From: an uncultured Clostridia bacterium
Lineage (GTDB): Bacteria; Bacillota; Clostridia; Oscillospirales; Ruminococcaceae
Direction of reading: 5' to 3'
NCBI GenBank assembly: GCA_947627875.1
Contig: CANQXS010000002.1
Span: 124,001-188,000, forward strand
Length of the DNA stretch: 64,000 bases
Shown: positions 43,158 through 44,535 of the stretch, in pieces
How the letters are laid out: the number at the start of each line of letters is the position of its first letter
How positions within the stretch are numbered: the stretch's first letter is position 1
The notes under the pieces: generated by a model
The model's input: the letters and a program-made list of their open reading frames with translations, nothing else
What the model was told of the DNA's origin: nothing
Databases searched by the model: none
Translations under genes and position numbers: made by a program

Positions 43158-43186
43158 TTGCCCAAAGCCGAAAACTTTGGTATACT
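43158..43186 (+). promoter_or_regulatory. Promoter of the HTH-repeat gene
   Basis: TTGCCC (43158-43163), 17-bp spacer, TATACT (43181-43186). A 7-bp palindrome TTCAAGC-GAT-GCTTGAA (about 43190-43206) sits at the expected transcription start, a possible operator for autoregulation. Confidence 0.7.
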
Positions 43187-43290
43187 TTATTCAAGCGATG
43201 CTTGAATCGGGCGCTTCAACCAGCGCTTGCTGGTATTTTACGCGCAGCCGATGCATAATGGAGGCACCAAATAACGAAAGGGCGGTTAAA

Positions 43291-44253
43291 ATGATATTCG
43301 GCAAATCCAAAAACGAAATTCTTAAGAGCACCCAGAGCGAGGTGTTCGACATTATGAGGGTCGGCGCAAACATCTCGAGACTGAGAAAAGCCGCGGGAAT
43401 AACCCAGACCGAGCTCGCCGACAGGCTCAACGTAAGCTTTCAGGCGGTATCGAACTGGGAAAGAGGTCAGAGCTGCCCCGACATCGCGAACCTTATGGAG
43501 CTCGCCTCGATATTCGGCGTAAGCGTCGACAGGATACTCGGCAGCGAGCGCGCGGCAAAGCTCGTGACCGAAATAAGCGAGGAAAAGGCTCCGGAAATGT
43601 CGGCGGAGGAGATAAAGGAGATAGCTCCTATTCTCGACGAGGCTCAGGCGGACAGCGTTGTGAGGAAAAACCTTATTGGCGAAGCCGGTACGACCGAGGA
43701 AGAAGCCGCCGACAGCGAAGAATACGAAAGCCTGTGCAGCGTTCCGACGGCGCTTCTGCCGTTTTTGAGCAACGAGCTTATAAGCGAGCTTGCCGTCGAC
43801 GCATTTAAAAAAGACGGCATAGATGCAATTCCGCCGAGCTGGCTGCCGTTTATCGACTATGAAGTTTTAGGGAAAATCGCAAAGGAGATTATGGAAAATG
43901 AAGGCATAAACGCGATACCGAACAGCTGGCTCCCGTTTATCGATGAGGACGTGTTGAGCGATATGGCGGATGATGTCTGCGAGAAAAACGGAATCGGCGC
44001 ACTGCCGCCGAGTTGGCTGCCGTATATCGACGCGGAACGGCTCGGAGCGCAGGCAAAGGCTTTGATCGAAAAGAGCGGAAAGGACGCGCTTCCGCCGAGT
44101 TGGCTGCCGTTCATAGACTATGAGGTTTTAGGCACAATCGCAAGAGAAATTATGGAAAATGAAGGTATAAAAGCGATACCGTCGAGCTGGCTCCCGTTTA
44201 TAGACGATGACGTGCTGAGCGACTATATCAGAAAGCGATTGAAAAAGAAATAA
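43291..44253 (+). CDS. XRE-family HTH protein with C-terminal SWLPFID tandem repeats
   Basis: 320 residues. Residues 24-85 form an XRE/Cro helix-turn-helix (GITQTELADRLNVSFQAVSN, WERGQSCPDIANLMELASIF). A linker follows, with a degenerate repeat-like unit (IAPILDEAQADSVVRKNLIG, 111-130). From residue 147 a 29-residue unit repeats: one diverged copy, then full copies at 177-205, 206-234, 235-263 and 264-292 and a final partial copy at 293-320. The core is PxSWLPFIDxEVL followed by an acidic-basic helix ending ENEG. No known ligand domain is recognised. The ATG at 43291 follows AAAGGG at 8 nt; an ATG at 43258 lacks a ribosome site. Acts presumably as a DNA-binding regulator; what the repeats bind is unknown. 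Confidence 0.85.
   Translation: MIFGKSKNEILKSTQSEVFDIMRVGANISRLRKAAGITQTELADRLNVSFQAVSNWERGQSCPDIANLMELASIFGVSVDRILGSERAAKLVTEISEEKAPEMSAEEIKEIAPILDEAQADSVVRKNLIGEAGTTEEEAADSEEYESLCSVPTALLPFLSNELISELAVDAFKKDGIDAIPPSWLPFIDYEVLGKIAKEIMENEGINAIPNSWLPFIDEDVLSDMADDVCEKNGIGALPPSWLPYIDAERLGAQAKALIEKSGKDALPPSWLPFIDYEVLGTIAREIMENEGIKAIPSSWLPFIDDDVLSDYIRKRLKKK
43819..44250 (+). repeat. Coding tandem repeat, 87-bp unit (29 residues)
   Basis: Units begin at 43819, 43906, 43993, 44080 and 44167. Units 1 and 4 are near identical, as are 2 and 5, so a three-unit (261-bp) block was probably duplicated after the basic array formed. Confidence 0.88.
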
Positions 44254-44267
44254 CAGGCGTTTTTGCA

Positions 44268-44301
44268 TTGCGGGCGGGAAGATTTTTCCCGCCTGCTTTT
44301 T
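44268..44301 (+). terminator. Terminator of the HTH-repeat gene
   Basis: 11-bp stem GCGGGCGGGAA/TTCCCGCCTGC with one mismatch (44270-44280 with 44286-44296), then TTTTT. Confidence 0.88.
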
Positions 44302-44328
44302 GCAATATATAATCCATTATTTTATCTA

Positions 44329-44357
44329 TTGCAAAATCAGTAACAGTCTGCTATAAT
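44329..44357 (+). promoter_or_regulatory. Promoter upstream of lon
   Basis: TTGCAA (44329-44334), 17-bp spacer, TATAAT (44352-44357). It would give a leader of about 170 nt. Confidence 0.75.
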
Positions 44358-44471
44358 AATCGCAAGCGATTATTATATTTTATTTTTAGTCGCCCTTTTG
44401 CTCCCCGACTTCGTCGGGAACCGCAAAAGATGGCTAATTATAGCACAAAGCCTTCGGCTTTATGCTATAAT
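44352..44471 (+). repeat. Array of three hairpin-forming palindromes in the lon leader
   Basis: Hairpin 1: a 12-bp perfect stem TATAATAATCGC/GCGATTATTATA (44352-44377, 2-nt loop), overlapping the -10 box. Hairpin 2: TTTTGC...CCCGAC-TTC-GTCGGG...GCAAAA (44396-44428). Hairpin 3: ATTATAGCA-c-AAAGCC-TTC-GGCTTT-a-TGCTATAAT (44437-44471). The last arm again contains TATAAT. No CIRCE or CtsR-type operator is seen. Confidence 0.7.
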
Positions 44472-44535
44472 AGAGCGCACACACAACAAGCAGACAACGG
44501 GTTTTCCTATTCTGATAAAAAGAGGTAATTGGTTT

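Follow-up and report, generated by a model that had tools for sequence, protein, structure and literature searches.

A putative self-activating XRE regulator with a predicted α-solenoid repeat half in an uncultured Clostridia bacterium

Introduction

The centre of the phage lambda operator OR2 lies at −42. Lambda CI bound at OR1 and OR2 activates the PRM promoter, whose −35 and −10 boxes read TAGATA and TAGATT (PMC3708714). Regulators of the RRNPPA group carry an N-terminal helix-turn-helix (HTH) followed by five to nine tetratricopeptide repeat (TPR) motifs, each about 34 residues long, or else by a TPR-like fold; Rgg and PrgX have no recognisable TPR sequence, and the gene for the secreted peptide adjoins that of its receptor, yet many members lack one (PMC9765709). 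Here we describe a gene that recalls both kinds of system, located on the forward strand of a 64,000-nucleotide stretch (the window; positions 124,001 to 188,000 of contig CANQXS010000002.1, assembly GCA_947627875.1) from an uncultured Clostridia bacterium of the Ruminococcaceae.

The encoded XRE protein resembles RRNPPA regulators (PlcR, ComR, Rgg, PrgX, NprR, AimR) in combining an HTH with predicted C-terminal two-helix repeats, and in its occurrence in Bacillota. It differs from them in a family unit of mostly 26–31 residues with a PF[LI] core, and in a double operator that would be autoregulatory. The likeness to lambda PRM lies in the two operators of the family, the proximal one centred about −43 from the inferred start beside a poor −35 position. 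Where the CI proteins of lambda, P22 and 434 have their C-terminal domain, however, the window protein has a predicted solenoid, and no phage setting was noticed around its gene. ImmR of ICEBs1, a mobile-element repressor, differs in the same respect, as we know of no solenoid in that protein. We consider it about 60% probable that the window protein is a stand-alone XRE transcription factor with an acidic α-solenoid as its C-terminal half, which would cooperatively switch on its own gene from two operators.

Promoter and operators

In a scan of named genomes, tblastn confirmed 285 relatives of the window protein (HTH included), and the 80 best of them form the set examined here. An initial annotation of the window had pointed to a TTCAAGC palindrome in the gene's own promoter as a DNA target. 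The palindrome is real and a likely, predicted target; what the annotation missed is that, on comparison with the relatives, a second putative operator stands beside it, in a promoter that most family genes share. The elements upstream of the gene are:

43158..43186, + strand: P1, a sigma-A-like promoter (TTGCCC-17-TATACT) that ends beside site 1 (from the sequence; relatives by eye)
43189..43207, + strand: putative operator site 1, palindrome ATTCAAGCGATGCTTGAAT, a perfect ATTCAA-N7-TTGAAT
43214..43232, + strand: putative operator site 2, TTCAA-N7-TTGCTG, midpoint 43223, at about −43 relative to the inferred start and 25 bp from site 1
43254..43259, + strand: inferred −10 box of P2, CATAAT, with an inferred start near 43266

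The −35 position of P2 (43231–43236) reads TGGTAT, a poor match, and site 1 is the sole perfect ATTCAA-N7-TTGAAT in its own genome. Best matches to this pattern reach at least 10/12 in 52 of 78 family upstream regions, against 3.2 expected from dinucleotide shuffles, and the shorter TCAA-N7-TTG lies within 350 bp in 73 of the 78; it was found within 300 bp upstream of none of 12 other HTH genes (seven from the own genome, five from viral contigs). Alignment of the upstream regions on the operator nearest the start codon reveals a −10 box at columns 38–43 (T82 A90 T39 A67 A54 T92, in per cent) and T in 97% at column 15, columns 0–3 and 11–13 being invariant by construction. The gap between operator and −10 box is exactly 22 in 60 own-promoter matches, and at most eight matches fall at every other gap from 16 to 28. 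Of 81 family genes, 63 carry the strict element, with TCAA-N7-TTG at the fixed −10 distance: 8/8 in Bacillaceae, 7/8 in Paenibacillales, 5/5 in Chloroflexota and 43/60 in Clostridia and others.

A second, mostly symmetric operator lies 24–46 bp upstream of site 2 in 47 of the 59 promoters checked, and 51 of the 63 genes with the strict element have two sites. The spacing between sites clusters at 24–26, 31–36 and 43–46 bp and is helically phased (R 0.66, against less than 0.38 in 99.9% of random draws, for loci that are related and not independent). All 59 promoters have −10 boxes with 4–5 of 6 matches, two or three letters being fixed by the search pattern, and none has a −35 box with at least 5/6 matches at 16–18 bp. 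The P1 arrangement is the same in relatives L045 and L046 and similar in L047 (by eye). It is not general in the family, in which no strongly conserved columns occur upstream of site 1. The position of the two sites, their absence before the control genes and the strongly conserved HTH argue that the regulator itself would bind them.

Protein architecture

The gene and the elements of its product are as follows:

43291..44253, + strand: XRE regulator with solenoid repeats, 320 residues (open reading frame and domain scan)
43354..43548, + strand: XRE HTH, residues 22–86 (PF01381, alignment)
43603..43677, + strand: pre-repeat helix pair, residues 105–129 (EEIKEIAPILDEAQADSVVRK), kept in the relatives aligned (alignment and AlphaFold2)
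43684..43731, + strand: probable flexible linker, residues 132–147, low pLDDT (AlphaFold2)
43738..43824, + strand: unit 0 (diverged), residues 150–178 (repeat parsing)
43825..43911, + strand: unit 1, residues 179–207 (repeat parsing, AlphaFold2)
43912..43998, + strand: unit 2, residues 208–236 (repeat parsing, AlphaFold2)
43999..44085, + strand: unit 3, residues 237–265 (repeat parsing, AlphaFold2)
44086..44172, + strand: unit 4, residues 266–294, 25/29 residues identical to unit 1 (repeat parsing, comparison)
44173..44250, + strand: unit 5 and C-terminal cap, residues 295–320 (repeat parsing, AlphaFold2)
44270..44303, + strand: intrinsic-terminator-like hairpin downstream of the gene

The HTH matches PF01381 (HTH_3) with an E-value of 3.1e-17 and 62.8 bits, well clear of the curated cut-off of 23, and by analogy SFQAVSNWER would be its recognition helix. 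The match to the RstR family NF041951 spans residues 22–116 only and, at 60.3 bits, falls below the curated cut-off of 80. From residue 150 a 29-residue unit occurs six times (units 0–5): WLP recurs at residues 184, 213, 242, 271 and 300, five units exactly 29 apart, and the weaker unit at 150–178 is in register. The mean BLOSUM62 self-score of residues 96–320 is 1.68 at lag 29, against a maximum of −0.09 in 1000 residue shuffles over lags 5–99. The reading frame, the Pfam match and this score bear out the initial annotation of an XRE domain joined to at least five copies of a 29-residue unit, and the glycines it singled out do follow an exact 29-residue register. Its two further "decayed copies" fare differently, since residues 147–176 correspond to the in-register unit 0 and residues 111–130 belong to the conserved pre-repeat helix pair.

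AlphaFold2 predicts a confident α-solenoid of two-helix units, with pLDDT of 90–97 across the units, in agreement with the proposed helical repeat and not with a disordered tail. The repeats are acidic (pI 4.2). As had been suggested, no credible named family was found for them: Pfam, NCBIfam and PHROGs profiles, searched in all with the window protein and with whole or partial sequences of five relatives, gave HTH models and, besides these, scattered weak or single matches. A match of the window protein to ArdA (25.8 bits, under the cut-off of 27) is in our opinion a compositional or helical chance match, and we take for chance the above-cut-off matches of TTRAP to relative L014 and of CITED and HalOD1 to L022, each present in a single protein among the five that were scanned with Pfam. 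A sequence search of the Protein Data Bank (PDB) with the repeat stretch of relative L013 gave no rows at E≤10; the same stretch had no match in plasmids, nor had the window repeat half in phages. At the 16 loci found in viral contigs the match did not extend beyond the HTH, or barely so, and comparison of the whole model with a viral structure library returned mostly HTH proteins. No mention of the repeat core, operator or recognition-helix strings was found in the open PubMed Central literature.

Units 1 and 4 are indeed near identical (25/29 residues, 75/87 nucleotides). The same had been claimed for units 2 and 5, which in fact share 62% of residues and 60% of nucleotides over their 26 shared residues and by eye are close over about the first 17 residues only. 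A lag-87 signal of 1.51 marks a three-unit pattern in the window protein. Congener G313, whose protein is 71% identical, shows this pattern as well, so that the three-unit duplication is not clearly recent in the window's own genome, contrary to the initial annotation. The expected variation in copy number is seen between species: the locus adjoining lon has six units in the window, six in G313, nine in G318 and 13 in G316, and in G321 the contig ends inside the gene. A tandem three-unit block in G318 is identical at 256/261 nucleotides and is a truly recent duplication; two two-unit stretches in G316 are identical at 170/174. As certain units resemble the corresponding units of other species more than the adjacent ones, and others are newly copied in tandem, the sequences point to both inheritance and fresh duplication of units.

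Distribution of the family

The window protein is placed by its sequence in a widespread XRE-plus-repeat family, unnamed in the libraries searched, that occurs in Clostridia, Bacillaceae, Paenibacillales and Chloroflexota, mostly with 4–13 'LAPFLSEEVLDELAKKAYEKGG'-like units of period 26–31. The SWLPFID unit is the form found in one small clade of this family, a point that had also escaped the initial annotation. Of the 80 loci kept, 77 were parsed automatically (the parser needed the HTH motif), and the remaining three (L099, L106, L122), read by eye, are family members. The number of units per parsed protein ranges from 1 to 13, with a median of 6; the locus with one unit, L046, is cut by the end of its contig. 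The commonest unit spacings are 26, 28 and 29, and one spacing holds in at least three quarters of spacings in 56 of the 76 proteins with at least three. A rough consensus of the unit reads L-x-x-[LI]-A-P-F-[LI]-[SD]-E-[ED]-x-[LI]-D-x-[LI]-A.

Within the GTDB family the repeat half was matched in 9 of 297 genomes at E≤1e-3, and within the genus the whole protein in 8 of 31 at E≤1e-20, some of these mainly in the HTH; a repeat profile was matched in 6 of 398 genomes of the phylum at E≤1e-6 (own genome counted in each). In the frames read from repeat-only searches an HTH precedes the repeats in all but L010, whose frame breaks off inside the HTH. The own genome has a single copy of the gene. In the Paenibacillus eucommiae genome of L052, a second family-like gene (L212) has a frame with MLDLRKIGAYIS, as in L158, and carries the family promoter element.

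Candidate targets

The main target found in the own genome is, by prediction, the regulator gene itself. Besides the perfect site 1 there are five places with one mismatch (a control pattern gave one place), none of which has a site-2/−10 element alongside, and no second site pair was found in this genome. One of the five (L142) is intergenic, before an alcohol-dehydrogenase-like gene (named by eye). Three more site-2-like matches were discarded, as they lie inside open reading frames or at a plain TTGACA promoter. Among the 31 genus genomes, nine have a perfect site 1, in one place each (control pattern, six places); only two of the nine are promoters of a family gene, so that site 1 alone is not diagnostic.

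In the fetched loci the gap-22 element also occurs at three non-family places (L073, L076, L116), other gaps at 1–7 each. Sixteen genomes of relatives gave 92 listed matches, of which 45 were examined in 40 stretches and 37, partly the same ones, in 30 loci. Among those examined, the full element is found only at family genes (including the paralogue L212), at an exporter operon (L218/L243), at L239 and at L235; the elements at L239 and in L235, the latter far from the match itself, lie inside open reading frames and were taken for chance. In 50 plus 28 further genomes (21 shared), the site pairs among the matches listed were judged by their coordinates to be own promoters, and G788 has one symmetric site inside a gene (L244).

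The exporter operon (L243, 1240–6540; G731:C27), in the genome of relative L072, has both sites 22 bp apart and a −10 box at the exact distance. Its genes, named by eye, encode two ABC exporter subunits (607 and 622 residues), a 355-residue protein and a GNAT-like protein. The exporters of L077 and L123, whose genes come immediately after the family gene, carry a similar C-terminal Q-x-x-[YW]Y motif. Control of exporters by the family regulator may be regarded as a lead, not a result.

Proposed mode of regulation

The same-face arrangement of two operators, with its resemblance to lambda PRM, leads us to favour cooperative positive autoregulation. Regulator dimers would bind sites 1 and 2 cooperatively, and the dimer at site 2, beside the poor −35, would contact sigma and turn on the gene in the manner of lambda CI. 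It is also conceivable, though we think it unlikely, that the regulator binds both sites to shut its own promoter or promoters until a signal received by the solenoid releases it. Autorepression is common in XRE proteins, and site 2 touches the edge of the −35 position, where a bound protein could repress. In the window's clade, site 1 lies directly downstream of the good −10 box of P1 and would cover its start; this hints at repression of P1 too, and P1 could then be a basal promoter that the regulator switches off. However, a −35 near background in the sole family-wide promoter would be odd if that promoter were merely repressed, a fixed centre near −43 is the classical place of a class II activator, and the P1 arrangement on which part of this argument depends is not general in the family.

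Several further observations, together with the possible repression at site 2 and P1, weigh against self-activation. The case for cooperative binding comes solely from the site spacing. Eighteen of the 81 family genes lack the strict element, several by a single spacing base or letter (by eye) and others entirely, and in the six remoter family genes that the phylum search brought in, the element is just upstream in L155 and L158, about 560 bp upstream in L157 and absent in L156, L159 and L161. Paenibacillales are mostly one-site, with two sites in one of seven genes that have the element. The −35 is poor and not absent, since its best-of-three-spacings mean is 2.98 against a background of 2.45. 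Only 12 of the 23 control HTH loci were parsed, 11 being left unparsed, and a tree of 78 family and six other HTHs is poorly resolved, with the family HTHs not forming one clade. The exporter operon is the sole candidate target outside family genes, and a single case.

Under cooperative self-activation, the solenoid may more tentatively be seen as the regulatory part, providing a dimer–dimer contact or a surface for a partner or ligand that sets when the loop fires, and gain or loss of units might tune the loop. Among the roles first proposed for the repeat, namely oligomerisation, ligand sensing and multivalent binding, the analysis gives no ground to prefer one. That it instead binds a short secreted peptide and so switches DNA binding, as in RRNPPA regulators, we judge improbable. 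The layout of an N-terminal HTH and C-terminal two-helix superhelix is shared (PMC9765709; AlphaFold2), and PlcR and ComR chains are among the PDB structures aligned with VIA-align, but the longer of these alignments have an rmsd of 12–18 Å and one of the ComR alignments is limited to the HTH. The units mostly span 26–31 residues, short of the TPR length of about 34, and the matches listed for the scanned proteins include no TPR model. By eye, no conserved small open reading frame adjoins the gene in the window and three congeners, which is not decisive because many RRNPPA genes have no neighbouring pheromone gene. The rapid duplication and divergence of units between congeners would suit a neutral, functionless tail expansion on an ordinary XRE protein; we give this very little credence, as the frame and PF[LI] core of the units are kept from Clostridia to Chloroflexota, the predicted fold is confident, and the pre-repeat and end caps recur among family members. 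Least credible of all is a solenoid that binds nucleic acid like PUF (Pumilio) proteins, making a protein that binds both DNA and RNA; the match to PUF domains is weak and of low identity, and the acidic repeats speak against RNA binding.

It is tempting to speculate that the family represents a class of chromosomal bistable switches: phage-free self-activators akin to lambda CI, in which an expandable solenoid would serve as sensor and cooperativity device and unit number would set the threshold, the main detectable target being the gene itself and, in some lineages, an ABC-exporter operon. This generalisation is doubtful. A regulator family of two phyla, unnamed in the libraries searched, yields a testable prediction of binding place, spacing and direction of action. 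With the conserved operator as a marker, targets can be sought in other genomes, and sister species, by differing naturally in unit number, offer a test of how the length of the repeat array tunes a genetic switch.

Genomic neighbourhood

The terminator-like hairpin suggests that the gene is probably monocistronic; lon follows beyond it. Four congeners have an MFS gene on one side, as in the window, and three have lon on the other. Nothing was noticed around the window gene that would indicate a prophage or mobile element, and among the neighbours at about 80 loci, as many as four genes on each side, none is generally conserved. The largest group of neighbours, at 14 loci, is that of ABC transporters of mixed types. 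Immediately downstream of the family gene, a pair of exporter size occurs on the same strand in L077 and L123 and on the opposite strand in L100; L120 and L064 have such pairs further upstream, and the near relatives of L064, L067 and L071, one each.

In L038 (7623–10591), PadR-like, DUF1700-like and DUF4097-like genes (named by eye) follow the family gene, a set known from envelope-stress operons. Response regulator and histidine-kinase-like genes (by eye) follow on the same strand in L076, L096 and L098, the first at about 190–260 bp. Between the regulator gene and lon lies a repeated element of about 120 bp (window 44350–44475), absent from this site in congeners G313 and G316 and present in G318. 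It has an inverted end stretch of about 25 bp, and the genome holds six near-full-length copies at 92–100% identity, two of them in tandem.
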